From: Dulcicalothrix desertica PCC 7102
GTDB taxonomy: Bacteria > Cyanobacteriota > Cyanobacteriia > Cyanobacteriales > Nostocaceae
Length of the DNA: 64,000 bases
Reading direction: 5' to 3'
Assembly (NCBI RefSeq): GCF_003991905.1
Contig: NZ_RSCL01000008.1
Coordinates: 186,001-250,000, forward strand
Shown here: positions 5,467 to 63,571 of the stretch, piece after piece
Position numbering within the stretch: the stretch's first letter is position 1
Layout of the letters: each line of letters opens with the position of its first letter
Notes under the pieces: generated by a model
Seen by the model: the letters and a program-made list of their open reading frames with translations, nothing else
What the model was told of the DNA's origin: nothing
Databases searched by the model: none
Program-made: the position numbers and the translations under genes

Positions 5467-6696
5467 ATGGGTATACCTCACGCATCTTTTACAGCGACTG
5501 AAAAAGCGTTTCACGTTACTGGGTATGAAAAAATAGACTTCAGTCTAGAGTATGTCAACGGTGCGTTTGATATTAAAAATACTGAAGTCGCAGACAGCTA
5601 CCAACCGTTTGGACGCTGTTTGGCAGTGGTTGATGCGAACGTTAACCGTTTGTATGGTGAGCAAATTCGAGCTTACTTCCGTTACTATGACATTGATTTG
5701 ACGGTACATCCTGTTACTATTACCGAACCTGCAAAGACGCTAGCGACGTTTGAATCGGTTGTAGATGCATTTGCTGATTTTGGTTTGATTCGTAAAGAAC
5801 CAGTTTTGGTAGTGGGTGGTGGACTAGTTACTGATGTAGTGGGTTTTGCTTGTTCTGCTTATCGTCGTAAGACTAACTATATCCGTATTCCAACAACGCT
5901 TATTGGTTTAATTGATGCAGGTGTCGCAATTAAAGTTGCAGTGAATCACAAGAAGTTGAAGAACCGTTTAGGCGCCTATCATGCACCACAGAAGGTAATT
6001 CTTGACTTTTCGTTCTTAAAAACTCTGCCTGTTGCACAAGTTCGTAACGGAATGGCAGAGCTAGTCAAGATTGCCGTAGTCTCAAATTCTGAAGTTTTTG
6101 AACTGCTGTACGAGTACGGTCATGATTTACTACAAACTCACTTTGGTTATGTAAATGGTTCAGAGCATTTACAAGAAATCGCTCATAAGGTGAATTACGA
6201 AGCGATTAAAACAATGCTAGAGTTAGAAACACCTAATTTGCATGAAATCGACCTTGACCGGGTAATTGCCTATGGTCATACTTGGAGTCCTACACTGGAA
6301 TTGGCGCCGCGCGTTCCTTTATATCATGGTCATGCGGTAAATATTGATATGGCATTATCGGCAACAATTGCATCTCGACGCGGATATATTTCTGTAGGAG
6401 AACGTGACCGTATTCTCGATTTAATGTCTCGCATTGGTTTGTCACTTGACCATCCACTATTAGAAGGTGATTTACTTTGGCACGCTACTGAGTCAATTAC
6501 TCAGACTCGTGATGGGAAATTACGTGCAGCAATGCCAAAACCAATTGGAACTTGCTTCTTTGTTAATGATTTGACTCGCGAGGAGCTAGATGCTGCGGTT
6601 GTCGCGCATAAAGAAATTTGTGCAGCTTTACCGCGTTCTGGTGCTGGTATTGATGCTTATATTGGCACAGAAGAGGTGGAAATGGCTGCGGTGTAA
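5467..6696 (+). CDS. mysA: 2-demethyl 4-deoxygadusol synthase (MysA)
   Basis: 409 aa, the usual length of cyanobacterial MysA. It belongs to the dehydroquinate-synthase-like sugar phosphate cyclases and converts sedoheptulose 7-phosphate to 2-demethyl-4-deoxygadusol using NAD+ and a metal, the first step of mycosporine synthesis in the cytosol. Visible motifs are the nucleotide-binding [16 protein letters not shown] (residues 115-130), [16 protein letters not shown] (141-156), [11 protein letters not shown] with the metal ligand E198, and the histidine pair in [14 protein letters not shown] and YHGHAVNID. The ATG start has a purine-rich ribosome site. mysB and mysC follow on the same strand; a 57-nt palindromic repeat sits between mysA and mysB. 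Confidence 0.97.
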
Positions 6697-6733
6697 ATAT
6701 TACGGGGTGGTTTGTAAAATTATGATATCTGTA

Positions 6734-6790
6734 AGGGGCGGGTTTACGAGATGGTACACACAGTTTTAGGATATTGGTTAACCCGCCCCT
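6734..6790. repeat. Palindromic repeat AGGGGCGGGTT...AACCCGCCCCT inside the mys operon
   Basis: GC-rich arms flank a ~36-nt middle including ACAGTTTTAGGATATTGG. A half copy lies at 38211-38250 with almost the same inner sequence, and a related arm pair at 30837-30949. Its place between mysA and mysB could set up a hairpin that tunes mysBC expression; that is inference. Confidence 0.8.
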
Positions 6791-16029: not shown

Positions 16030-16108
16030 TCTCTTATTCCCCAATACCCCATACCCCATACCCCAGGCTGAAGCCTGGGGCTACACTGGGGCTACACTGG
16101 GGCTACAC

Positions 16109-16819
16109 TTATGTAGCGTATTTGACGCTACATCCATAAGGTTGAGTTGTAGATGTTTTTACTGCTTCACCCTTGAGGACGCTATCTACAGCCGCACGCA
16201 CATAATTATTGGCTGTTTTGGCATCTTGAGGATTTTTAGACGAATTATCATCAATGGCGCCTGTGTATTGTAACACGCCGTTTTTATCAATTACATACAT
16301 ATGAGGCGTTGTACGAGCTTGATACAATTTACCAACTTTTCCATCTGCATCAATAAGTACTGCTGTCGGATTTGCATTACGAGTTTTTGTTAATTCGTTG
16401 GCTTTTTGTGGAGCTACATTTCCTTGTTGTCCAGGCGCCGAGGATATTACTGATAGCCAAACCACTCCTTTACCAGTTTTTTCCTTTTGCAGCGCTTGCA
16501 TATTATTGCTTTCATAATGCTTTTTCACAAATGGACATTCGTGATTTGTCCATTCTAATACAACTGTTTTACCTTTGAAATCACTAAGATTGTGTGTTTT
16601 GCCATTGCTATCTACTGCTGTAAATGCAGGTGCAGGGGCGCCTACTCTAACAGCAGTAGTATCAGTATTTTGTGAAACAGGACTTGATACATTTTGTGGC
16701 ACCGAGCTATCTGCTGAATTAGTAGAACTTTGGCAACCTGCTGTTGAGGCTATAGCTAGTGTAGTAATTCCTGCTATAGCTAGCTTTTTCCAGTCGAGTT
16801 TTTGTAGACGTGTTTTCAT
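16109..16819 (-). CDS. Redoxin/thioredoxin-like lipoprotein
   Basis: 236 aa. The N-terminus KLAIAGITTLAIASTAGCQ has a lipobox with Cys29, so it is an exported lipoprotein, followed by a low-complexity Ser/Asn linker. The redoxin domain begins VRVGAPAPAFTAVDSNGKTH; its active site is WTNHECPFVKKHY with one Cys (CPFVK instead of CxxC), as in a peroxiredoxin-like family. LSVISSAPGQQG and LYQARTTPHMYVIDKNG (cis-Pro) complete the fold. It is transcribed after the truncated dsbD gene, from which it is separated by an inverted-repeat element, suggesting a former envelope redox pair. Confidence 0.85.
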   Translation of the reverse strand: MKTRLQKLDWKKLAIAGITTLAIASTAGCQSSTNSADSSVPQNVSSPVSQNTDTTAVRVGAPAPAFTAVDSNGKTHNLSDFKGKTVVLEWTNHECPFVKKHYESNNMQALQKEKTGKGVVWLSVISSAPGQQGNVAPQKANELTKTRNANPTAVLIDADGKVGKLYQARTTPHMYVIDKNGVLQYTGAIDDNSSKNPQDAKTANNYVRAAVDSVLKGEAVKTSTTQPYGCSVKYAT

Positions 16820-16840
16820 GGTTGGTTTTATGGGTTGATG

Positions 16841-16941
16841 GCAACGGATACAGCGGATGTAACGGATAAATAAATGGGCTTCGTAAAGAAGGTTGTTTTT
16901 TTAACTAATAAATCATCCGTTACATCCGTTAAATCCGTTGC
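16841..16941. repeat. MITE-like inverted repeat, GCAACGGAT family (copy 1)
   Basis: About 101 nt with ~27-nt ends: GCAACGGAT...GCGGATGTAACGGAT on the left and ATCCGTTACATCC...ATCCGTTGC on the right. A second copy lies at 33210-33335. The right end supplies the last codons (LQRI) and the stop of the dsbD remnant. Confidence 0.75.
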
Positions 16942-17735
16942 AAGGTGTTTACAACTTCGCTTACTGAAAGCGACTGAGGTAAAATTATCGGCTTGTCGGA
17001 GTTGGTAGCAGGATATAAAACATACAAGGGTACTCCGCTACGCCCAAAAGATTCTAATGCTTTGGTAATTTCTGGGTTACGATTTGTCCAGTCAGCTTTG
17101 AGCAAAGTAACGCCTTTTGATTTAAAAGCTGCAATTGTATCTGGTTGATTTAAAGCTACTTGTTCGTTTACGAGACAACTTACACACCAAGCTGCGGAAA
17201 AATTTACAAATACTGGTTTTCTTGCTTGTCGAAGTTCGGTTAACCGTACTAAAGTATACGGTTGCCAATTAATTAAGCTGTTTTGAGAAGGGTTATTTGC
17301 GACTGTGTTTGTAGTGTTATTGGGAATTTGGGCTAAAGTTAACGCAAATCCAACTACTACTAAGGCGCCTATGGTTCCTAAACGTTGCCATAGTACTTTG
17401 GCTAAACGTGTTTTTTGGTGGAACCAAGCAGCAAAACCAATTAATACAAGTCCAGCCAAAGCAGCAGCTAAACCATTAGTTCCTGCTTGTAATGTTAGTA
17501 TCCATACCAACCAAGCGGTGGCAGCATACATTGGAAAGGCTAAAACTTGCGAAAATGTTTCCATCCAGGCGCCTGGTTTTGGTAGGATGCGCTGTAACCC
17601 TGGAGTGAAGCAGATTACTACATAAGGAAGTGCTAACCCAAAGCCTAATACTTCAAAAATAGCTATGGCAATTAAAGGAGGTTGAGTAAGCGCAATACCA
17701 ATTGCTGTTGAAATCTTTGGAGCAAGCGGGATGAT
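16929..17735 (-). pseudogene. dsbD: 5'-truncated thiol:disulfide interchange protein DsbD
   Basis: The open frame starts after a TAA at 17736-17738 without a start codon for the membrane part. It matches the end of the DsbD transporter domain (IGIALTQPPLIAIAIFEVLG, GLALPYVVICFTPGLQRILP, then KPGAWMETF), a few more helices, and a complete C-terminal thioredoxin-like domain with FSAAWCVSCLVNE (CVSC motif). The first half to two thirds of the CcdA-like channel is missing. An internal ATG (17564) could express 211 aa with the redox domain, but electron transfer across the membrane should be lost. DNA beyond 17736 has no DsbD similarity, so a rearrangement took the 5' part. Confidence 0.75.
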
Positions 17736-17775
17736 TTATTATAGATGGTTAGACAGTCCTGGTTCTTGCGTATGT

Positions 17776-17940
17776 AGCGTGCTAAATTTTAATTATAATC
17801 GATACTTTTCCTTTAAAATCAAGGCTTACAGGCACTTATAGTTGAAATTTTGGGAATTTTATTTTTTACAAAGGTAATAATGGCTGCAAGATAGGCATAG
17901 CAGGATTTTCAAGCTATTTTATCAATACATTTAGCACGCC
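17776..17940. repeat. Possible MITE with AGCGTGCTAAAT / ATTTAGCACGCC ends
   Basis: Eleven of 12 bases match between the inverted ends, with ~140 nt of AT-rich DNA between them and no clear target duplication. It abuts the truncation of dsbD, so it may mark the rearrangement. Confidence 0.4.
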
Positions 17941-17967
17941 AAGTACGGAAGAGCCGCTAATACAATT

Positions 17968-18864
17968 TTAATAATATCTGCTACGATAATCTTTAGGTGT
18001 AACACCCATGACTTTGCGGAAGTGTTTACCGAGATGGCTGTGACTATTAAAACCTAAAGTTAGGGCGATTTCGGTAATAGATAGGTGGGAATTGTTTAAA
18101 AGAGATTTGGCTCGTTCGATGCGTTCTGTCATCACATACTGATATGGAGACATACCCATAGATTGCTTAAACAAACGGCTAAAATGAAACTGGCTAATTC
18201 CTGCTAGCTCTGCTAAATCTGATAATTTAATTTCTGTGGCTAAATTGTCATTAATATAATCGGTAACTACAAGTAACAAACGATTACATAATCCTCCCTC
18301 GTAAAAACTTGTGCTGATTCTGTTGATACAATAGTTCCGCAGTAAAATTACAGCCAAAGCATTCCTCAAGGATTCGATATACAACTTGTTTCCCCAACCA
18401 TTACCCTGGATGAGTTCGGAATGCAACATCATTGTAATTTGCTCCATTTGAGAATTACGAGAATGAAATTGAGGGATTAGTTCTAGGTTGCTTGCGTCAA
18501 TTTCTGCAATTTCCTGAGTTGCAAGCTTTAATAGCTGCGGTTCGATTTGAACTTGAACAAAATGGTCTCCACCTTCCGACCTAAATGTACCTTCAATTCC
18601 TGCGGGTGTAATACAAATATCTCCCTTGCGATAAATTCCTACATAGCGTTGCCGTCCCATCATCTGATGGATACGCTGGGGACGTGCTGAGAGACACAAG
18701 GTAAAATCATGTACAGCCAAAGCTGGGTAGGAACACTGACTCGGTGGTAAACGGTATTCCTTTACAATAATTGACTCCCAACCTAAATCTTGGCTGGAAA
18801 CAATTAAGCCTTCATTGGATGAATAAATTATTTCTGTTATTTCTGAGTTGAGTGCTATGTTCAT
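17968..18864 (-). CDS. AraC-family transcriptional regulator
   Basis: 298 aa. The C-terminal ~100 residues are a double helix-turn-helix: IKLSDLAELAGISQFHFSRL, then MSPYQYVMTERIERAKSLL, then LSITEIALTLGFNSHSHLGK and FRKVMGVTPKDYR. The N-terminal ~190 residues are a beta-rich sensing domain (HDFTLCLSARPQRIHQM, GDICITPAGIEGTF). It is divergent from the GNAT gene 202 nt away and may control it. ATG 18864 is used. Inducer unknown. Confidence 0.92.
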   Translation of the reverse strand: MNIALNSEITEIIYSSNEGLIVSSQDLGWESIIVKEYRLPPSQCSYPALAVHDFTLCLSARPQRIHQMMGRQRYVGIYRKGDICITPAGIEGTFRSEGGDHFVQVQIEPQLLKLATQEIAEIDASNLELIPQFHSRNSQMEQITMMLHSELIQGNGWGNKLYIESLRNALAVILLRNYCINRISTSFYEGGLCNRLLLVVTDYINDNLATEIKLSDLAELAGISQFHFSRLFKQSMGMSPYQYVMTERIERAKSLLNNSHLSITEIALTLGFNSHSHLGKHFRKVMGVTPKDYRSRYY

Positions 18865-19066
18865 CGTTCATTTTGACAGGAATTGCATTCAAGGCGAAAG
18901 ATGCAGCAAGATTGTAGTATTACCGCAAGAATTAAATAGCACATTCGCTAAAAACTTTTTAAATTCTAATTATGTTTGCCACCCAAAAGCAAGTAAGCTT
19001 CAGGGTTTCAATGCAGCCCAAGTCCTATATCTAAATAAATTCGGCATAAATAGCGGTACAGTAACG

Positions 19067-19672
19067 ATGAGTAATAATTTGACGTTGGAATCTTATAGCT
19101 CTATCTCTACCATTGCCCAGGTGTTGGCAGAATCATTTGCTGATGACCCTAGCTTTAACCTTGTCTTTGGTCAAAATCCCAATCGTTTAGCTACTATACG
19201 TGCTTTTTTTGAGCCATTTGTGGCGGATGCCACCAAACGCGGCAAAATTATTATGGCGCCTAATTTGCAAGGTGCTTGTATTTGGTATCCAACCGAAGTG
19301 GAAATTTTTGACGAACAATTTGAGCAAATGTTGATGGAAGTTATTAAAACTCTTACCAAGCTTGCTGGAGAAGAATCCGCTCAACGTTTTCAACATTTAA
19401 TAGAACAAGTTGGTAATCACGAACCACAACAAAGTCATTGTGAAGTGTTTTTTCTTGGGTTGAAACCATCCGCACGAGGAAAGGGTATCGGTCAAGATTT
19501 AATCAAACCCGTTCTTGATTACGCAGATAAAAATCAACTTCCGTGTTACCTTGTTTCTTCCAATTCGCGCAATATTTCCTTCTACGAACGCCAGGGTTTT
19601 AGAAAATATTGCTCTATCAAAATTAATGACACTTACTCCATGACGGGGATGTGGCGAGAGTTATCTTGCTAG
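19067..19672 (+). CDS. GNAT family N-acetyltransferase
   Basis: 201 aa from ATG 19067 (SNNLTLESYSSISTIAQVLA). The acetyl-CoA site is VFFLGLKPSARGKGIGQDLI, with the RGKGIG pyrophosphate loop, and a C-terminal NISFYERQGF motif. It transfers acetyl from acetyl-CoA to an unknown amine. The frame is open from 18848, but that would overlap the divergent araC-type gene, so I use 19067. Its stop overlaps the end of the convergent ene-reductase by 12 nt. Confidence 0.85.
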   Translation: MSNNLTLESYSSISTIAQVLAESFADDPSFNLVFGQNPNRLATIRAFFEPFVADATKRGKIIMAPNLQGACIWYPTEVEIFDEQFEQMLMEVIKTLTKLAGEESAQRFQHLIEQVGNHEPQQSHCEVFFLGLKPSARGKGIGQDLIKPVLDYADKNQLPCYLVSSNSRNISFYERQGFRKYCSIKINDTYSMTGMWRELSC

Positions 19673-20755
19673 AGCAGGATAATCTGTATACCCTTGCTCT
19701 AAAGCTTGATTGCCTTTACCATAAACAGTTGCAAAATTTACCTCGTTCAAAGGTGCATCGAGGACAAACCGATGGGGTAAATCGGGGTTTGCAATAAAGG
19801 GTCTGCCAAAGGAGACTAAATCTGCTTCGTTGCTCAAAAGAACTTGATTGCCTTTGCTTTTGTTGTAATTTCCGTTTGTGATAATTAAGCCAGAATAGAA
19901 GGGACGAAAGGTTTTTAGCACTGGATTGATTACGCTTTCCGTTTTGAGGTCGTCTTCACTTGGCTCCATTAAATGAATATAAGCCAGATTGAATTGATTG
20001 AGTTGTTGGATTACATAGCTGAACGTTGTGATAGGATTGGAATCACGTATTCCATAAAACGTATTGCTGGGAGATAGCTTAATTCCAACTTGCCCTCCAC
20101 CCCATACTTGACAAACGGCTTCCACAACTTCCAAAAGAAAGCGAGCGCGATTTTCAACCGAACCGCCATAGCGGTCAGTTCGCTGATTGGAGCCATCTTG
20201 TAGGAATTGATCTATTAAATAGCCAAATGCTCCATGTAGCTCCACACCATCAAATCCTGCTTGCATAGCGTTTTTTGCAGCTTGACGAAATTGCTCAATA
20301 ATACCAGCTATTTCCTCGGTTTCTAAGGCGCGCGGAGTTTCCATTGTGACTTTTCCTACTGGGGTATGTAGCGTTCCCACAGGTGCTATCGCGCTGGGCG
20401 CTACAGGCAACTCCCCATTGAGTAACGCAGGATGAGAAATCCGACCCGAATGCCAAAGTTGTAGAAAAATCTTGCCACCAGATTGATGGACAGCATCAGT
20501 CACCTGTTGCCAGCCTGCAACTTGCTCAGGCGAATAAATACCCGGACAGTTGATGTATCCATTGCTCATGGGCGACACCATTGTACATTCTGTGACTATC
20601 AGTCCAGCAGATGCTCGTTGATGGTAATACTCTGCCATCGTAGCATTAGGTATTGAATCCACTGCTCGCAACCGCGTCATGGGAGCCATCACGATCCGAT
20701 TTGCCAGACGATGTACACCAAGCTGAATCGATGAAAAGAGATTGCGCTCGCTCAT
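19661..20755 (-). CDS. Alkene reductase (Old Yellow Enzyme, NADH:flavin oxidoreductase)
   Basis: 364 aa from ATG 20755. An FMN-dependent TIM barrel that reduces activated C=C bonds. Motifs include NRIVMAPMTRLRA near the N-terminus, LQLWHSGRISHP, GFDGVELHGAFGYLIDQFL, DRYGGSVENRARFLLEVVEA and VSFGRPFIANPDLPHR. GAGG lies 7 nt before the start. The frame stays open upstream, but that extension has no family similarity. It is divergent from an HxlR-type regulator with a palindromic operator between them, a common arrangement for aldehyde- or quinone-sensing control. Confidence 0.95.
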   Translation of the reverse strand: MSERNLFSSIQLGVHRLANRIVMAPMTRLRAVDSIPNATMAEYYHQRASAGLIVTECTMVSPMSNGYINCPGIYSPEQVAGWQQVTDAVHQSGGKIFLQLWHSGRISHPALLNGELPVAPSAIAPVGTLHTPVGKVTMETPRALETEEIAGIIEQFRQAAKNAMQAGFDGVELHGAFGYLIDQFLQDGSNQRTDRYGGSVENRARFLLEVVEAVCQVWGGGQVGIKLSPSNTFYGIRDSNPITTFSYVIQQLNQFNLAYIHLMEPSEDDLKTESVINPVLKTFRPFYSGLIITNGNYNKSKGNQVLLSNEADLVSFGRPFIANPDLPHRFVLDAPLNEVNFATVYGKGNQALEQGYTDYPALAR

Positions 20756-56415: not shown

Positions 56416-56589
56416 CTATATAGAGACGCACGCTAAACCTGTGGCATAGAAGGCGCCTGCTGCAACTTCAGTAGGTAAACTTGCTTGTGTTGAACAGAAA
56501 CGAGGCAAACAAACGTCCGAAATTGCTGACAATCCGACACTTCCCCCAAAGGAATGTCCTAGCAATCGTGCTTTCAAGCAATTCAGTCA
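56416..56589 (-). pseudogene. C-terminal scrap of an alpha/beta hydrolase
   Basis: The minus strand reads LKARLLGHSFGGSVGL, with the G-x-S-x-G nucleophile elbow, then VCLPRFCSTQASLPTEVAAG and FYATGLACVSI before a TAG. An in-frame stop lies just upstream and no start exists. The rest of the 56368-56757 gap holds nothing recognised apart from the leader of the next gene. Confidence 0.5.
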
Positions 56590-56757
56590 TATTACCAAGA
56601 CTCTAAACATATATAGTACTACCGTTAATTCATGCTCCTCGCAGTTATTTAAAGTTTCCAAAAAGAAGCTGAAGTCCGTATAATTACCATCTGACTATTT
56701 TTCTCTGTATAAGTCAAAATAGTATTCATAACGGTTTATCAGTAGTCCAAAATCCTT

Positions 56758-59700
56758 ATGAAGCTGGTTAAACGCACAACGCTGCATCACCAAGAGGGTA
56801 CATCTAATCGAGTTTACGAAGTTGACTTATGTCAAATAGCGAACCAGCGTTATGTGGTTAACTTTCGCTACAGCAAACACGGTGCGAATTTAAAGGAGGG
56901 TACAAAGACCGTTCAAGCTGTACCTTTAGAAGAAGCGCAGAAAGTATTTGATAAATTAATCGAACAGAAGCAAAAAAAGGGTTACGTAGAAAACGTTGCA
57001 GAAAATAACTTAAATAAATTTGATTTAACTCAACCCATAATAGTAGATGACCCACAAAAGCAAGCAGTTATTAACCGTCTAGCAGATAATCAGCCCAATA
57101 AATGCAACTTAGAAAGGGCAATATGGCGCGCAGGTGAGCTTAAAATGAAAGAAGCTACACCACTACTTATCAATCTTCTTGGAACAGGCACCCCTTTAAG
57201 AGATTACTGCATAGCTTGGGCGTTAGGATGGTGTGGCGCCAGTGAAGCAATACCATTCGTCACTCAGTTACATCAAAACTCAGCAACACCTGATTTTGTT
57301 CGACGCATTGCTTTTGAAGCATTATTAAAGCTAGCAGACGATGCCACAAAAGCGAATTTACAGGCTCAAAAAATAGAAAGTTTACCTCCAGAGTTGTTAT
57401 CTTTAGCGCGCGTTGGTTCTTCAGAGTCATTTGCAAAATCACTCAGCTCATATTTAGAAAGTGGAGATTATCAAAATTTTGCTGTTCTCGATCCTATCTA
57501 TCAAGTAGATAATGAATACGTGCGTCCAGCGTTGTTAAATATATTACGTAGCGCACCTTTCGCACCTAATTATTTCCAGCGAATACGACATATTTTTAAA
57601 ATTGCCGAATACCGTCGTGATGCTGAAGTATTCGCTATTCTGGCTTACCGCTTCGACAAGCATTCACCAATGTTTTCCAGTCGAAAGAGGACTATTGAGG
57701 TGGTAGGAGATAAATTTCTCAGAAAATCTGGTTTGTATTGGGACTCGCAAACGAAGAGTACAAAGGAAGTAACTAAAGATGAAGTTGCCGAAGAACTCAA
57801 ACGTCCCGACTCAAAGCTTGCTTACAGCACAAAAACTCGTGATTACTTTTTGCGGCGTCTGTGGCGTACTCTCACAAAACTAGGTGAAGATGGCGACCCA
57901 GACTATGTAAGAATAGCAGCCACAATTTTACTTCAATATTCTGATGCAGATGCAGAACCTGTAAAAGAGTCTACTTTCAAGCGCAGACTACCTTCTGAGC
58001 AACAAATTTTTGAGAATCAATTTATCGAATATCAGCGTGTTTGGGACATATACGCACGCTATATAACCTTTAATCATATTCTGTACAAGAACAGTCTACG
58101 CTATGAACTAAAATCTAATGCACACGCTTGGTCATGTCGAGAAGCCTATAAGATATCTGGGGAAGTAATACACTTACAGCGAGAAGAAGCTTTCCCACAG
58201 CTTTGGGAACAAAATCCAAGTATATTAGTTAAATTGCTTTTAGAAAGTAATTGTCGTCCTGTTCACAATTTCGCAGTCAAAGCTTTAAACGCTTCGTCTA
58301 ACTTTTTAGACTACATCAATATAAATACTATTATTGAATTAGTTAAAAAGCCTTATTTAACTACAGTGCAATTTGCTTTTGAGGTAACAAGGAAAAAATA
58401 TAATTATACCGAGCCTAATAATGAGTTAATTATAGCACTTGCAAATTGTATTGATGACAACGTGCGCGCTCAAGCTTTACGACTAATTAGCAAAAGGCGA
58501 GATAGCTTCTTACAAGACAATACTTTTATACCTAAGTTAATTACAAGCGAGTATGTAGAAACTCGCAAGTTAGCTCGTAATATACTAAACAACAGTATTA
58601 TTTCAAACAGTGTAGCACTTGTATTTATTGAAACAATTATTGCTAAATTGCTTTCAATTAAATCTTCAGCAATACCTGAATATCAACACAACACAGCCAA
58701 AGACCTGATGGCTGTTTTATTAATTAACTTTACACTTCAGTTACGCAGTCTACCATTAAATACCATTCAAAAGTTAATTACACACCCACTGGCAATCATT
58801 CAAGAATTAGGCGCCCGCATTTTATTGAATCATGAAATAGGCGCCTTTCCAGCACAATTAATAGTCAATGTCTTAGAATCATCGCATGAACGAGTCCGGG
58901 TAATAGGTCTAAGGTTATTTAGTGCTTTACCTTACGAAAACCTGATTGGAGAACATAGAAGCTTAATTGTCGTCATGGCAACAAATGTCAGTCCAGCAAT
59001 TCGTAATGCCATCAAACCAACTATTCGATATTTGGCTTCAACTTACCCAAGCTTCAAGATTCAACTTGCTTCAGATTTAATTGAAATTTTACTCATCCCA
59101 GAAAAACATCAAGGAGTTCATATTTATTTACAAAGCTTACTATTAAAAGACTTACAAGGATGGACATCAAGTGTTAATAAAGAAACCATTTTTAAACTTC
59201 TGCACGCAAAGTATCCACATGCTCAAGAGCTAGGAGGTATATTACTGCATGAAAATTGTCAAGCTTTAATACCAGAGCTAGCAACCAGTGAAATTGTAAA
59301 ACTTGCTAACCACGAAATTTTTACAGTCCGCCAAGCCGCAACACAGATATTATCACAAATATTAAACCGTTTACGTGCGGATTCTCAAGACATGCTAGCA
59401 ACTGTACGCTTGCTAGACTCCAAATGGGATGACTCACGAGAGTTTGCATTCAGAGTATTTACCCAAAATTTGGCGCCAGAAGAAATTGTACCAGAAGTTG
59501 TAATAGCTATCTGTGATAGCGTTCGAGAAGATGTACAGCAACTAGGACGAGATTTAGTAACTCAAAACTTCCACACCCAACAAGGACAAGAATACCTTCT
59601 CAAATTTAGCGAACATACATCAGCAGATATGCAGCTATTTGCTAGCAACTTTTTAGAAGAATACGCAGTAAACAATCCAGAAAGGCTACGTGAATTAATG

Positions 59701-59961
59701 CCATTTTTTATACGTGTATTATCTCTTGTAAATCGTGGTAGTATAGTAAAAAAGAGAATTTTCGCCTTCTTAGAATCAGAAGTACAAAAGAGTGAAGCTG
59801 CCGCAACTATTGTGGCAGAAATAATGTCACGACAATCAGCAACTATAGCAATAGGAAATAAATCGATGACAATACAAATTATGTTAAAGATTCGTAAAAA
59901 ATTTCCTCATATATCTCTACCATTTAATTTAAAAATCGTAACTGAAACAAGAAGCAAATAA
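56758..59961 (+). CDS. Retron accessory protein: WGR domain + HEAT/ARM repeats (MolR-like)
   Basis: 1067 aa. Residues 1-~80 form a WGR domain (KLVKRTTLHHQEGTSNRVYE, NQRYVVNFRYSKHGANLKEG). The rest is a long alpha-solenoid of HEAT/ARM-like repeats (IWRAGELKMKEATPLLINLL, DYCIAWALGWCGASEAIPFV, ELGARILLNHEIGAF, VRVIGLRLFSALPYENLIGE, EFAFRVFTQNLAPEEIVPEV). It resembles E. coli MolR-type proteins. In retrons of the ARM + WHSWIM kind such a protein is one of the two effectors. It is followed after 60 nt by the SWIM gene. WGR domains often bind nucleic acid; the solenoid may bind the RT/msDNA complex (inference). Confidence 0.88.
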   Translation: MKLVKRTTLHHQEGTSNRVYEVDLCQIANQRYVVNFRYSKHGANLKEGTKTVQAVPLEEAQKVFDKLIEQKQKKGYVENVAENNLNKFDLTQPIIVDDPQKQAVINRLADNQPNKCNLERAIWRAGELKMKEATPLLINLLGTGTPLRDYCIAWALGWCGASEAIPFVTQLHQNSATPDFVRRIAFEALLKLADDATKANLQAQKIESLPPELLSLARVGSSESFAKSLSSYLESGDYQNFAVLDPIYQVDNEYVRPALLNILRSAPFAPNYFQRIRHIFKIAEYRRDAEVFAILAYRFDKHSPMFSSRKRTIEVVGDKFLRKSGLYWDSQTKSTKEVTKDEVAEELKRPDSKLAYSTKTRDYFLRRLWRTLTKLGEDGDPDYVRIAATILLQYSDADAEPVKESTFKRRLPSEQQIFENQFIEYQRVWDIYARYITFNHILYKNSLRYELKSNAHAWSCREAYKISGEVIHLQREEAFPQLWEQNPSILVKLLLESNCRPVHNFAVKALNASSNFLDYININTIIELVKKPYLTTVQFAFEVTRKKYNYTEPNNELIIALANCIDDNVRAQALRLISKRRDSFLQDNTFIPKLITSEYVETRKLARNILNNSIISNSVALVFIETIIAKLLSIKSSAIPEYQHNTAKDLMAVLLINFTLQLRSLPLNTIQKLITHPLAIIQELGARILLNHEIGAFPAQLIVNVLESSHERVRVIGLRLFSALPYENLIGEHRSLIVVMATNVSPAIRNAIKPTIRYLASTYPSFKIQLASDLIEILLIPEKHQGVHIYLQSLLLKDLQGWTSSVNKETIFKLLHAKYPHAQELGGILLHENCQALIPELATSEIVKLANHEIFTVRQAATQILSQILNRLRADSQDMLATVRLLDSKWDDSREFAFRVFTQNLAPEEIVPEVVIAICDSVREDVQQLGRDLVTQNFHTQQGQEYLLKFSEHTSADMQLFASNFLEEYAVNNPERLRELMPFFIRVLSLVNRGSIVKKRIFAFLESEVQKSEAAATIVAEIMSRQSATIAIGNKSMTIQIMLKIRKKFPHISLPFNLKIVTETRSK

Positions 59962-59976
59962 CTTTCTTTCTTCCTT

Positions 59977-60002
59977 CTTTGTGTCCTTTGTGCCTTTGTG
60001 GT
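59977..60002. repeat. CTTTGTG/ACCACAAAG dispersed repeat
   Basis: In reverse it reads ACCACAAAGGCACAAAGGAC, nearly the sequence translated in the helicase tail at 34751-34773. It fills most of the spacer between the two retron accessory genes. Confidence 0.6.
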
Positions 60003-60021
60003 AAATAATCTTTTTAAACAT

Positions 60022-61680
60022 ATGGAATTTAACTATAGCTATAAAAAAAGCACAGAAATAGTGCAAAACGGCAGTAATACTCAAATGTCCTTCTCCCCCG
60101 ACACAAAGCGTCCACCCACATACTTCATAGGTGAACTACGTCAAAACATAGCCTTTCGTGAAGCCATTATGGCTTTACACGACGTAGTAGTATCAGACCT
60201 ACGCTTCAAAGCAAAAGACAAAACCGCATATAAAGAATGGCGAGCAAAACAAGACCAAATAGACTGGCAACTAGTTACAACACTACGCCAAGATATAGTA
60301 GATAGAATCCAACAACTACAAGCCGAGTCTAGCGAAATAACAAAGCGTAATTACAAACGTTGGGCTAGTTACTATGAAGCTCAAAATCGTTACCGCAAGT
60401 ACTTATATGAACAAAAAAGCGATATTTTGTACATTTTTGACCCTGTAATTACCGTTCACCCCGATGAAGTATTTTTTGAGTGCTTTAGCGTTGATGAATC
60501 AAGCTACGGTCGTTTAGGCGCCAGTTACGAAATCTTCAAGAACATAAATGAATTTGCCTGTGGAACAACAAACGTAGATTATTCAGCATCACTGTACAAT
60601 GAATTTCAAAAAATCCGCAGCTACAAAACAACACAGCTACAAGTTGACCCTTCAGGCTTTGAAGTTCAGACCACAAACGAAGACACCTATAAAGAAGTCA
60701 AAATAGACTTACCCGATAGCTGGGTCAGAGGTTTTCTACAAGTAAGTTCGGCAATGTGTCTACCAGCAACGCGGTTCGACTTGCATCCAATGGATATCCA
60801 TAATATATGTTTTATCCTACGGCGCCATAAAGAAAAACAAGGGCCACGCAGTATCTGCTACCACCTCAAACCAGGTGAACCCGTGCGAATAGTCTTTGAA
60901 CCGTGGAACATAGAGGTAGTTTGTCACCGTTCGCCTTATTTTGGTGATGCTCAAACTATTCGTATATGGGGACGCCGTCGTCTGAACATTCTCGAACGTC
61001 TTATTCCTGTAGCGAACAAGTTTACTGTTCATCTACTGGGTACAGGTATGCCATCATTTTATGTTGCCGACCTGGGTGATATGTCCTTTACCTTGGGTTT
61101 ATCAGGATGGACTGCCAATGACTGGGCGGGTGCTGGTAACTTTGACTTAATGGCGCCGCGTCTAGATGTTGATGAGTGGACACAAAGAACTATTTTTAAT
61201 GCACTGCGAGAAAATTGGGTAGAAGATATAGACAGTCTTTCACAACGCTTGGGTATTAGTCGTACAACATTAATGGGAGGTCTAAGTGCTTATACACAAG
61301 CAGGTAGAGTAATTTATGACTTAAACAAACAGGTGTATAGAGTCCGAGAACTTAGCCGCGAACCTTTACCAATACAGCGCTTGCGCTTTGCCAACGAACG
61401 AGAAGAAAAAGCTACACGTTTTTTAGCACAAAACGCTGTCAAAGTCGCATCTATTAACGAGCAAGACAGCATATTAACCTTAAAAGGTCGTGTCAGAGGT
61501 AAAGGCAAAACTTACACCCCATCTCTGACTATCGACAAAGATGAGCGTATTGCACAAGGTGAATGCACTTGCAGTTGGTATAAACACCACAAACTTTACA
61601 AAGGCCCATGTGAACACATGCTAGCGCTACGAATGCAATTTAGGCGCCAGTCTAAAGAAACCGGGTTTCTTCATCACTGA
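60022..61680 (+). CDS. Retron accessory protein: winged-helix + SWIM zinc finger
   Basis: 552 aa from ATG 60022 (EFNYSYKKSTEIVQNGSN); open to GTG 59998 inside a repeat. A large N-terminal region (residues ~1-380) with conserved LPDSWVRGFLQVSSAMCLPA and FTLGLSGWTANDWAGAGNFD; a winged helix at ~395-445 (DSLSQRLGISRTTLMGGLSA); a SWIM zinc finger C515, C517, C530, H532 (CTCSWYKHH...GPCEHM). SWIM modules bind DNA or protein. In ARM + WHSWIM retrons it is the second effector. The last codons SKETGF come from an AAACCGGGTTTCT repeat arm that also gives the stop context. Confidence 0.88.
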   Translation: MEFNYSYKKSTEIVQNGSNTQMSFSPDTKRPPTYFIGELRQNIAFREAIMALHDVVVSDLRFKAKDKTAYKEWRAKQDQIDWQLVTTLRQDIVDRIQQLQAESSEITKRNYKRWASYYEAQNRYRKYLYEQKSDILYIFDPVITVHPDEVFFECFSVDESSYGRLGASYEIFKNINEFACGTTNVDYSASLYNEFQKIRSYKTTQLQVDPSGFEVQTTNEDTYKEVKIDLPDSWVRGFLQVSSAMCLPATRFDLHPMDIHNICFILRRHKEKQGPRSICYHLKPGEPVRIVFEPWNIEVVCHRSPYFGDAQTIRIWGRRRLNILERLIPVANKFTVHLLGTGMPSFYVADLGDMSFTLGLSGWTANDWAGAGNFDLMAPRLDVDEWTQRTIFNALRENWVEDIDSLSQRLGISRTTLMGGLSAYTQAGRVIYDLNKQVYRVRELSREPLPIQRLRFANEREEKATRFLAQNAVKVASINEQDSILTLKGRVRGKGKTYTPSLTIDKDERIAQGECTCSWYKHHKLYKGPCEHMLALRMQFRRQSKETGFLHH

Positions 61681-61722
61681 ACACAATAATCTTAAAACAA
61701 AACGAAAAGAAACCCGGTTTCT
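61658..61722. repeat. Inverted repeat, AGAAACCCGGTTTCT family (copy 4), overlapping a CDS end
   Basis: Left arm AAAGAAACCGGGTTTCTTC encodes KETGF near the C-terminus of the SWIM protein; right arm GAAAAGAAACCCGGTTTCTG. The hairpin could end the accessory-gene transcript before the retron RNA. Confidence 0.8.
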
Positions 61723-61798
61723 GTAAATTTTTAGCTTACCCTCTTCCCAAAATCACTAGATTGCGATTAAGCTATAAATACAAAAAAATAAAAGTTCG

Positions 61799-62075
61799 CG
61801 CACAGCAGCTAGTCGTAAGTATTAACCTTGCAATCCGGACGATGTATCATCGTCCTTGCGCTGAGTCTATACATGCTTCACTAGCCAGTTCTTTACGGCG
61901 CTCCGCCACCCAGTGTCGCGGTTTGGTTTCTGTAAAACCGACGACTCTAAATGGCTAAATCCTAACAGCACCCGAGACTAGCAATCTTGGTATAATGCTT
62001 GTGGGTGGCTCCGCTGAGTAAAACTGTCTAGTCTCGGGTGATTTACGAAGGGGTTTACAAACTAGCAGATGTGCG
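61799..62075 (+). ncRNA. Predicted retron msr-msd RNA
   Basis: The 480-nt gap before the RT gene has the layout of a retron template. Outer arms a1 CGCACAGCAGCTAGT (61799-61813) and a2 ACTAGCAGATGTGCG (62061-62075) pair at 13 of 15 positions. After a1 comes a perfect hairpin GGACGATG-TAT-CATCGTCC (61837-61855), a GGCG-CTC-CGCC hairpin (61897-61907) and CGGTTT/AAACCG (61919-61940), plausible msr stems. The msd stem is CACCCGAGACTAG / CTAGTCTCGGGTG (61969-61981 and 62028-62040), 13 perfect pairs around a 46-nt loop region. The branching G is expected just after a1. A possible -10 (TATAAA) lies at 61773-61778. Confidence 0.75.
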
Positions 62076-62161
62076 TAATTTTTTATACAAATAATCCTGA
62101 CATTTGTTAAATCTTAAAGTTAAGCTGAAAGCATTAAATATTAGTGTCTCTACTGCATAAT

Positions 62162-63571
62162 ATGAGCGACCAGCCCCGTAACCGAGAAGAGTTATACCAA
62201 TACATCAGCAAAGTTGGCAGGGAAAAATTCATTCTCGAAGACATGCAACGCTACGGTTTTTGGCAAGGTGATTCACCACAAGGTTCAGAAGAAGATACTC
62301 GGCGCCAGCTGGAAATTCAACGAGAAATAAACGAACTAGGAAGACAAAGCTCAAAACTCCAAAATGAGAAACTACTGCGTGAACTATCTTTAAAGAAGCG
62401 CTTAGAAGAATCACGTCGCAGGCGTCAGGAAACCAAAGAACGCCAAGAACGAGAACGCCAAGAACGTGCAGAAGCCTGGAGACAAAGAAAAGAAAAAGAA
62501 ATTCTTTACCTTGGTGAAGATGTTTCGGGTGATTTAAACAATACCGAAGGTAATGAAGAAAGATTAAACTCACTCTCATTACCAGTTTGTAATACTGCTG
62601 AACAAATAGCAGCAGCAATGGAGATCACTGTTGGTAAACTACGCTTCTTAGCATTTAACCGTAAAACTTCCACAGTCTCCCACTACATTCGCTTCAAAAT
62701 GCCCAAAAAAACAGGGGGAGAACGTATCATATCGGCACCAATGCCACAATTAAAGCAAGCACAGCACTGGATATTAGCAAGTATTCTTGAAAAATTAGAA
62801 CTTCATGATGCTGCACATGGTTTTCGTCGCGAACGTTCCATTGTTTCCAACGCAACTCCTCATGTAGGTGCTGAAGTAATAATTAACTTTGACTTAAAAG
62901 ACTTTTTCCCCTCTATATCTTACAAAAGAGTCAAAGGACTATTCCGTTCCTTTGGTTATTCAGGCGCCGCAGCAACTATTTTTGCTTTAATATGTACTGC
63001 TGCTGAAGTCGAAGAACTAGAATTAGATGGTCAAAATTATTATGTTGCGGTCGGTGACAGGTTCCTTCCCCAAGGTTCACCAGCCAGTCCAGCCATTTCT
63101 AACTTGCTCTGTCGTCGTTTAGACCGTCGCCTAACAGAAATGGCAGAAAAATTAGGTTTTGCTTATACTCGCTACGCTGATGATTTAACCTTTTCTGCCT
63201 CTGGTGACAGCCTCAACTCTATCTGTAACATTCTCCGACGTACAGAATCCATCGTCACTCACGAAGGTTTTACAATAAACCAAGATAAAACTCGAATCCA
63301 AAGAAAATACAACCAACAAGAAGTTACAGGTGTAGTAGTTAACGAGAAACCTAGCGTTTGTAGAAAAACACTAAACAGGTTCCGCGCGACCTTATATCAA
63401 ATCGAGAAATCTGGTATAGAAGGCAAACATTGGGGCAACACTTCCAACACCATTGCTGCAATTACAGGATTTGCAGATTTTGTCGCAATGGTCAACCCAG
63501 AAAAGGGAGCAGAATTCCAAGAGCAAGTAAAACGAATCAAAGAGAAACTCAAGCAAAATACGCTATCGTAA
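62162..63571 (+). CDS. Retron reverse transcriptase (Mx162-like, type XIII-like)
   Basis: 469 aa from ATG 62162 (GTG 62144 also open). A long charged N-terminal extension (residues 1-~125, Arg/Glu-rich coiled coil such as LKKRLEESRRRRQETKERQE) precedes the RT. Diagnostic retron motifs: NAxxH as NATPH (230-234) in region X, motif A FDLKDFFPSI (D244), PQGSPASPAISNL (motif B), YADD (338-341) and VTG (388-390) in region Y. The stretch KLRFLAFNRKTSTVSHYIRF matches the myxobacterial Mx162-type RTs. It copies msd into msDNA. The template lies directly upstream and two accessory genes before that, forming one locus. Confidence 0.95.
   Translation: MSDQPRNREELYQYISKVGREKFILEDMQRYGFWQGDSPQGSEEDTRRQLEIQREINELGRQSSKLQNEKLLRELSLKKRLEESRRRRQETKERQERERQERAEAWRQRKEKEILYLGEDVSGDLNNTEGNEERLNSLSLPVCNTAEQIAAAMEITVGKLRFLAFNRKTSTVSHYIRFKMPKKTGGERIISAPMPQLKQAQHWILASILEKLELHDAAHGFRRERSIVSNATPHVGAEVIINFDLKDFFPSISYKRVKGLFRSFGYSGAAATIFALICTAAEVEELELDGQNYYVAVGDRFLPQGSPASPAISNLLCRRLDRRLTEMAEKLGFAYTRYADDLTFSASGDSLNSICNILRRTESIVTHEGFTINQDKTRIQRKYNQQEVTGVVVNEKPSVCRKTLNRFRATLYQIEKSGIEGKHWGNTSNTIAAITGFADFVAMVNPEKGAEFQEQVKRIKEKLKQNTLS

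Follow-up and report, generated by a model that had tools for sequence, protein, structure and literature searches.

A 64-kb stretch of the Dulcicalothrix desertica PCC 7102 genome (11.4 Mb in 109 contigs), corresponding to positions 186,001-250,000 of contig NZ_RSCL01000008.1 and referred to here as the window, was analyzed for a retron that had been predicted from its sequence. All positions are given in window numbering. The original prediction of three co-directional genes and an RNA was confirmed by the open reading frames (ORFs) and by the localization of a template RNA (msr-msd) at approximately 61799-62084 (Table 1). The genes encode a WGR-HEAT solenoid protein, a SWIM zinc-finger protein and a reverse transcriptase (RT), and the template is positioned between the latter two. 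The same locus is present in syntenic arrangement in the closely related genomes of Calothrix sp. PCC 7716 (93% DNA identity) and HK-06 (91%). For all three proteins the PADLOC models of retron type XIII gave by far the highest scores; the RT reached 655 bits with its type XIII model versus 320 bits with the next one. As judged from the sequence, the window locus is a complete and ordinary member of the known retron type XIII, as had been suspected.

Table 1. Features of the type XIII retron of D. desertica PCC 7102 in window numbering (MFE, minimum free energy).
Feature	Position	Strand	Evidence
WGR + HEAT/ARM solenoid protein, 1067 aa	56758..59961	+	PADLOC WGR_XIII 1112.8 bits over 1-1062; Pfam WGR 2.9e-5, HEAT_2 5e-11
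SWIM zinc-finger protein, 552 aa	60022..61680	+	PADLOC SWIM_XIII 783.6 bits; Pfam SWIM
Template RNA, a1 to U tract	61799..62084	+	Profile match; 21/27 covarying pairs; covariance-model match in own genome E 2e-19
a1 arm	61799..61813	+	Pairs with 62061-62075; CGCACA/TGTGCG and GCTAGT/ACTAGC complementarity; agrees with MFE fold
CCUUG	61826..61830	+	CCUU can pair with AAGG 62048-62051; G61830 is the candidate priming G (inferred)
msr hairpin	61837..61855	+	8 pairs, compensatory changes in 5/8 (A2)
msd stem-loop	61880..62032	+	Conserved base 61880-61891 with 62021-62032; apex variable yet paired in relatives
a2 arm	62061..62075	+	Same complementarity and MFE fold as a1
U tract, terminator-like end just 3' of a2	62079..62084	+	Read in sequence
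Retron RT, 469 aa, ~130-residue N-terminal extension	62162..63571	+	PADLOC RT_XIII 655 bits; start from alignment A1; NAxxH, YADD, VTG

Pfam families above the cut-off were assigned to all three proteins, namely WGR and HEAT_2 to the first, in agreement with the predicted solenoid, SWIM to the second and RVT_1 to the third. The second protein had been described as a winged-helix SWIM protein. The SWIM part of this description holds, and the pattern CxC..CxH is present in 78 of the 80 SWIM sequences checked. The winged helix has no Pfam match, but residues 385-441 of an AlphaFold model (mean predicted local distance difference test score 75 in the best of five models, 60-66 in the others) are modeled as helices and a hairpin, which would be compatible with such a fold. 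Sequence searches of the PDB yielded no match below E 0.28 for the SWIM protein; for the WGR-HEAT protein they returned designed alpha-repeat proteins, HEAT proteins and a match to the WGR region (E 0.0026). Of the two partners, the SWIM protein is better conserved, with a mean column identity of 74% (31 sequences) versus 46% for WGR-HEAT. The ATG at 60022 is preferred as its start, and a GTG at 59998 is also possible. For the RT, the ORF list gives a GTG at 62144, and the ATG at 62162 (M-S-D-Q-P), which is common to most relatives in alignment A1, is preferred. The RT harbors all three predicted motifs, NAxxH, YADD and VTG, which occur in 80, 80 and 79 of 80 relatives, respectively. Among PDB chains its profile showed the best match to the Ec86 retron RT (E 7e-68), whereas the best chain labelled as a group II intron RT reached only 8e-11. 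The possibility that the enzyme belongs to the group II intron RTs, raised together with the original prediction, was thus not borne out, and by its sequence the window RT is a retron RT.

The gap between the SWIM and RT genes (61681-62150) folds better than all of 100 shuffled versions (z -4.6), which agrees with the structured non-coding gap that had been noted there. Stronger evidence is its membership of an RNA family: a profile derived from the window sequence and then widened detected the same RNA at loci labelled as seven phyla, i.e. cyanobacteria, Myxococcota, Bacteroidota, Pseudomonadota, Planctomycetota, Acidobacteriota and Chloroflexota, several of them being metagenome bins. In an alignment of 53 templates (A2), at least one compensatory change was found in 21 of the 27 predicted pairs. 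One of 19 mapped pairs of the msd stem (61891-62021) is non-standard in the window. A2 comprises 53 of 57 non-redundant templates; L127 was omitted because it had been cut wrongly, and single copies of L174 and L105 as well as L123 because of a long or odd cut. Four of the 85 templates had been skipped at trimming. RNAalifold was applied to trimmed alignments, as the result for all 85 untrimmed templates was blurred by their flanks. Six matches were obtained in Rfam, all below the gathering scores and all to eukaryotic miRNA, snoRNA or mRNA-element families.

G61830 is invariant across the 53 sequences of A2. It is considered a candidate for the priming G only, because the priming motif of Mx162 is CAGC according to PMC6868368, and this motif is not located at the aligned position in the window. 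Measured between two conserved points, the window template exceeds the median of 79 templates by 40 nt. By analogy with other retrons, a multicopy single-stranded DNA (msDNA) of about 165 nt is predicted if copying halts at the base of the msd stem. The Mx162 msDNA has a length of 162 nt according to PMC6868368. This agreement may be due to chance, because the templates of most relatives are about 40 nt shorter. A length match with Mx162 that had been read off trimmed alignments was dropped, since the trimming itself had set that length. Approximately 80 nt separate the window template from the RT gene, with the U tract between them.

Relatives of the locus were obtained by scanning genome contigs with the RT alignment, which yielded 453 related loci; 80 of these were obtained with flanks of up to 10 kb. 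At all 17 non-cyanobacterial loci among the 80, the SWIM gene and a template share the locus with the RT; the SWIM gene is located within 3 kb in 15 of them (farther in L099 and L118), and in all 17 no more than about 310 nt separate a template from the RT match. In many cyanobacteria the template begins at the 3' end of the SWIM gene, and the RT gene follows 0.7-5 kb onward or is not found in the neighborhood. An RT_XIII without an evident nearby SWIM gene was recorded for 32 entries from 29 genomes, three of which had been reached twice, and a SWIM_XIII gene was present in all 29 genomes searched. After L066 and L118 proved to be linked over approximately 10 and 6 kb, 27 split genomes remained. 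Each of these contains one RT_XIII with the N-terminal part, one SWIM_XIII, a full-length WGR_XIII and at least one template. RT and SWIM gene are separated by 10 kb or more in 23 of the 27 and by 20 kb or more in 17. Where both genes are located on a single contig, the distance amounts to 5.7 Mb (L077; about 2.6 Mb by the shorter route if the contig is circular), 1.2 Mb (L058), 0.64 Mb (G308) and, in a fourth genome, 27 kb; further single-contig distances are 5.2 Mb (G468) and 1.15 Mb (G489). No RT was located within the stretches fetched around the SWIM cassettes of the 27 split genomes. The template lies within 2.3 kb of the SWIM gene in 24 of them, and in G405, G406 and G409 both the template and the WGR gene are found on yet another contig; the WGR gene is apart from SWIM in seven of the 27. 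A search at maximum sensitivity of the 1.5 kb upstream of each of the 27 split RTs gave no convincing template (best E 0.19). The window has a template gene adjacent to its RT, and the 27 split relatives do not. In a tree of RT sequences (73 rows; among the 80 named loci, ten without usable SWIM information as well as L120, L125 and L133 were excluded) every split row is cyanobacterial.

The joint occurrence of the parts was assessed in two draws of genomes. The first comprised 386 cyanobacterial genomes, and an RT_XIII was counted as full-length if the match started at model position 12 or earlier. RT_XIII matches with E <=0.001 occurred in 139 of the 386 genomes, most of them to other RTs, and the N-terminus was reached in 15. 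SWIM_XIII was matched with E <=0.001 in 20 genomes and with E <=1e-100 in 15, which are identical to the 15 with a full-length RT. WGR_XIII (E <=1e-60) was found in 13 of those 15 and in no other genome, and the template in 13 of them and three others. The three additional genomes harbor an RT_XIII-like gene that lacks all or part of the N-terminal extension; the two members in which neither WGR nor the template was matched (G114, G169) are divergent. The second draw comprised 152 genomes of a single order. Full-length RT_XIII was present in 42, of which 41 also contained SWIM_XIII, and SWIM without RT did not occur in this draw. The exception is a 2.9 Mb assembly that is 82% complete. Six genomes that contain only RTs without the extension all lack SWIM. 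RT and SWIM are linked within 10 kb in 16 of the 41 genomes and not linked in 25; in four of the latter they share a contig, 27 kb to 5.2 Mb apart. That unlinked parts are retained together is good evidence for a single functional unit of RT, RNA, SWIM and WGR-HEAT.

The separated parts were also examined for signs of decay. In an alignment of split-cassette templates (A5; 23 sequences, 77 pairs), which covers all but L188 of the 24 split cassettes whose template is near SWIM, 91% of the cells hold a standard pair. Changes on both sides were found in 40 of the 77 pairs, with 209 such cells versus 61 in shuffled and at most 69 in slid alignments. The apex helix is variable in sequence and shows changes on both sides in 17 of 18 pairs. 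The split-cassette templates therefore still evolve as a structure, as judged from these alignments. All 27 split RTs retain NAxxH, YADD and VTG. The ratio of non-synonymous to synonymous substitutions (dN/dS, Nei-Gojobori) was 0.09-0.28 in eight pairs of split RTs, and 0.09 and 0.10 in two linked pairs. RT and SWIM distances are correlated with r 0.84 in split and 0.94 in linked genomes (L098 excluded), much of which would be expected from shared descent alone.

Several loci exhibit arrangements that appear transitional. Tandem or double templates are present in L099, L105, L116 and L120, and L069 and L081 harbor one template at SWIM and one at the RT. Three closely related loci, L073, L076 and L034 (the last being a second retron in the genome of the window), have a nearly complete SWIM-side template and an RT-side template that is cut to approximately its first 40 nt. 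These remnants were recognized by alignment with L069 and L081; the profile detects only that of L076. A run of at least five T residues within 55 nt after the CGAAG motif follows 31 of 38 SWIM-side templates versus 5 of 13 RT-side templates, and the intact RT-side templates of L069 and L081 lack it. It was also recorded for 13 of 25 templates near both genes and for all of six others; L130, L131 and L133 have no CGAAG motif. The double templates, the remnants and the bias in T-runs make it likely that duplication was followed by loss. The template would have been duplicated, the SWIM-side copy would have carried its own terminator, the RT-side copy would then have been lost, and the RT gene would have been able to move freely.

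The observations as a whole are probably best explained by a complete type XIII retron that acts as a four-part unit, in which the template is tied to the effectors and the RT acts in trans. The RT would copy the msd part of the RNA into msDNA, which is predicted to form the unit together with RT, SWIM and WGR-HEAT. The template RNA would be associated with the effector pair no less closely than with the RT gene, and the latter would have been relocated repeatedly, with no part being lost. As the template in many cyanobacteria stands behind SWIM and usually has a terminator-like end of its own, the RT may act in trans and its gene could have moved. By analogy with other retrons, the complex of RT and msDNA would keep SWIM and WGR-HEAT inactive or primed, and a change in the msDNA during phage attack or DNA stress would free them and halt growth. 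Family membership, RNA fold and co-retention of unlinked parts are shown by sequence, whereas copying in trans, msDNA formation and effector release are inferred. The SWIM protein is the better effector candidate and may already have had a large partner before it joined the retron, because it is more conserved and its homologues occur beside DUF6493 proteins in three plasmid records (see below).

Several points weigh against this explanation. No enzymatic domain was recognized in SWIM or WGR-HEAT, so that the effector step rests on analogy. The window's own copy of the retron is compact, which means that the split organization is not a property of this locus. The linked or split label requires 11 changes on the RT tree, which was built with a quick method, and at least six of them are forced by well-supported branches. 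All genomes are related by descent, and the 15 of 386 and 41 of 42 are therefore not independent events. Nor is the second draw independent of the first, since the two overlap: 31 of its 41 genomes were absent from the first draw, and 13 of its 25 unlinked cases were already among the 27 split genomes, leaving 12 new ones. The T-run signal may in part mirror AT-rich genomes. Two of the 27 split genomes contain a broken or misread part: in L097 an in-frame stop interrupts the RT near residue 68, and in G403 the SWIM gene is spread over two frames with stops. Both are metagenome assemblies, and either decay or sequence error may be the cause. Finally, many of the split genomes are drafts, and the lower bound of the distance is below 10 kb in four of the 27.

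The draft state of the genomes would fit an ordinary compact retron whose unlinked arrangement elsewhere arises from fragmented assemblies or from the wrong RT having been read, and 21 of the 25 unlinked cases of the second draw are indeed on different contigs. This is nevertheless most improbable, as near-complete chromosomes with distances of 0.6 to 5.7 Mb on one contig largely refute it, the lower bound reaches at least 20 kb in 17 of the 27 genomes, and each split genome harbors just one RT_XIII with the N-terminal part. A different objection is that the unlinked RT has ceased to serve the SWIM-linked RNA, with the parts persisting separately by descent and the RNA now being an element of the 3' untranslated region (UTR) of the SWIM mRNA. 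Vertical descent is strong in these lineages, the templates immediately follow SWIM and mostly have a U tract, and the two split genomes with a broken RT or SWIM gene would agree with such a loss of function. However, none of the 41 SWIM carriers lacks the RT, the split RTs retain their motifs and a low dN/dS, and the template is not near SWIM in three of the 27. Moreover, the msr hairpin, the msd stem and the paired apex covary in split cassettes, which a UTR role would not predict. This objection is accordingly regarded as unlikely to hold.

The system could also serve a purpose other than phage defence, namely a chromosomal response to stress or DNA damage, in which the msDNA would be a decoy for DNA ends or a cofactor of WGR and SWIM. 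SWIM relatives were found neither in 50,697 phage records nor, by a pattern search, in IMG/VR contigs, and 72,556 plasmid records contained one clear member (L208 2858-9379, Methylobacterium bullatum). Only one of ten other window proteins tested matched a defence model, the retron parts are scattered across the genome, and SWIM homologues are paired with DUF6493 proteins with no RT annotated nearby. The results from phage and plasmid records and the scatter across the genome would fit a resident function as well as defence. On the other hand, PADLOC files the system among the retrons, and retrons of known role generally act in phage defence. A stress function thus appears possible but rather doubtful. 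In the plasmid member L208, WGR, SWIM, template and RT are arranged in a row; this 2.8 Mb record is classed as a plasmid.

Templates and partial cassettes were also observed apart from complete retrons. A third template in the window's own genome is located directly behind a paralogue of the WGR-HEAT gene (L198 7051-10720; C9, about 16050-19720), with neither SWIM nor RT in this stretch. L204 harbors a similar cassette, and a second cassette of template and WGR-HEAT without SWIM or RT is present in Calothrix parasitica. Templates stand alone in G401, G405, G406 and G409, and the stretches L199, L200, L201, L202 and L203 contain a template and no retron gene. In L200 and L201 the template lies beside genes that look similar by eye, which suggests a conserved site. 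RTs of L048, L049 and the genomes G203, G328 and G042 are approximately 60% identical to the RT core (46% in G042), lack the N-terminal extension fully or partly and occur without SWIM. L048 and L049 contain TPR repeats, and a related RNA is found just downstream of the RT in G203 and G328 and upstream of it in G042. It is tentatively proposed, at slightly less than even odds, that a single template-free RT of the cyanobacterial type XIII retrons serves one or several template RNAs at other loci. The RNA rather than the gene cluster would then define the system, which would include the cassettes with WGR-HEAT only and the lone templates.

Further genes and repeats were noted around the retrons. 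A gene for RNase III is located within about 1.4 kb upstream of the RT at 16 loci (L036, L063, L066, L068, L071, L083, L085, L091, L092, L095, L104, L106, L107, L109, L113 and L124), in several of them together with an NYN-domain gene. RNase III, with or without the NYN protein, was rejected as a core part, as a high-scoring gene of this kind, judged by bit score, is present unlinked elsewhere, including the window's genome, and in two of 22 genomes only a lower-scoring one is present. The window retron is flanked by a 91-bp direct repeat (89%), whose left copy is at 56558-56643 and whose right copy is just outside the window (L035, ~6592-6682). By eye, the right copy extends across the start of an ORF that resembles an antitoxin gene, and it is adjoined by an 80-bp segment (L035, ~6685-6761) that duplicates part of the RT gene (62767-62846) with 92.5% identity. 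The protein encoded at 33387-34898 matches a portion of the PADLOC model PbeA and, weakly, models of type IV restriction.

The detection and classification of retrons rely on an RT with an adjoining template and effector. Tools based on gene neighborhood would therefore score many split members as RTs without template or effector. What is unexpected, according to the sequences compared here, is that the family often disperses its parts, unlike the textbook retron, and that it includes transitional forms, one of them in the window's genome. The hypothesis of an RT acting in trans can be tested directly with the covariance model and the list of split species. A natural RT able to locate its template in trans would, if confirmed, be useful for msDNA engineering. 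A literature search found nothing on retrons with unlinked parts or on what type XIII does, a statement that extends to this search only; neither XIII nor SWIM is mentioned in the main text of PMC12548924.

Among known systems, more distant similarities concern the partner proteins. Pairs of SWIM and DUF6493 genes on plasmids of Streptomyces, Diaphorobacter and Asticcacaulis (L205 6773-13106, L206 6770-11009 and L207 6782-11070) encode a homologous SWIM protein (hhalign 99.8%) followed by a large protein, and no RT is annotated in the stretches of these three plasmid records. A kinship of WGR-HEAT with DUF6493 was rejected, as no relation is detectable (hhalign 0.3%). The E. coli yehF-yehQ genes (WGR, MoxR, VWA, SWIM) share a similarity in the WGR domain of YehF (E 4e-5 in a six-protein search); YehQ and YehI were not significant, and the partner proteins are thus not considered kin of the yeh genes. 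The partner proteins of the Ec86 retron differ from SWIM and WGR-HEAT, and the match of the window RT to the Ec86 RT begins at profile position 132, so that the N-terminal extension is not covered. Such an extension is described for the RTs of Mx162, Mx65, Sa163 and Ne144, which group with RTs from Nostoc and Trichodesmium according to PMC6868368. The RT had been predicted to be Mx162-like, and it fits this account with respect to its extended N-terminus. The type XIII group probably includes the long-known Mx162. Loci of Archangiaceae and Nannocystis match the RNA and RT searches with the window sequences, and those of Archangium, Hyalangium and Nannocystis share the RNA family and the order WGR-SWIM-RNA-RT. 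In a textbook retron, the template gene adjoins the RT gene and both are on one transcript, as outlined in PMC8867640. With the type XIII retron the window shares all three protein models (655-1113 bits) and the template between SWIM and RT, with no essential difference, whereas many cyanobacterial relatives differ from this type in that the template stands at SWIM, the RT is unlinked and, in seven of the 27 split genomes, WGR is unlinked as well.

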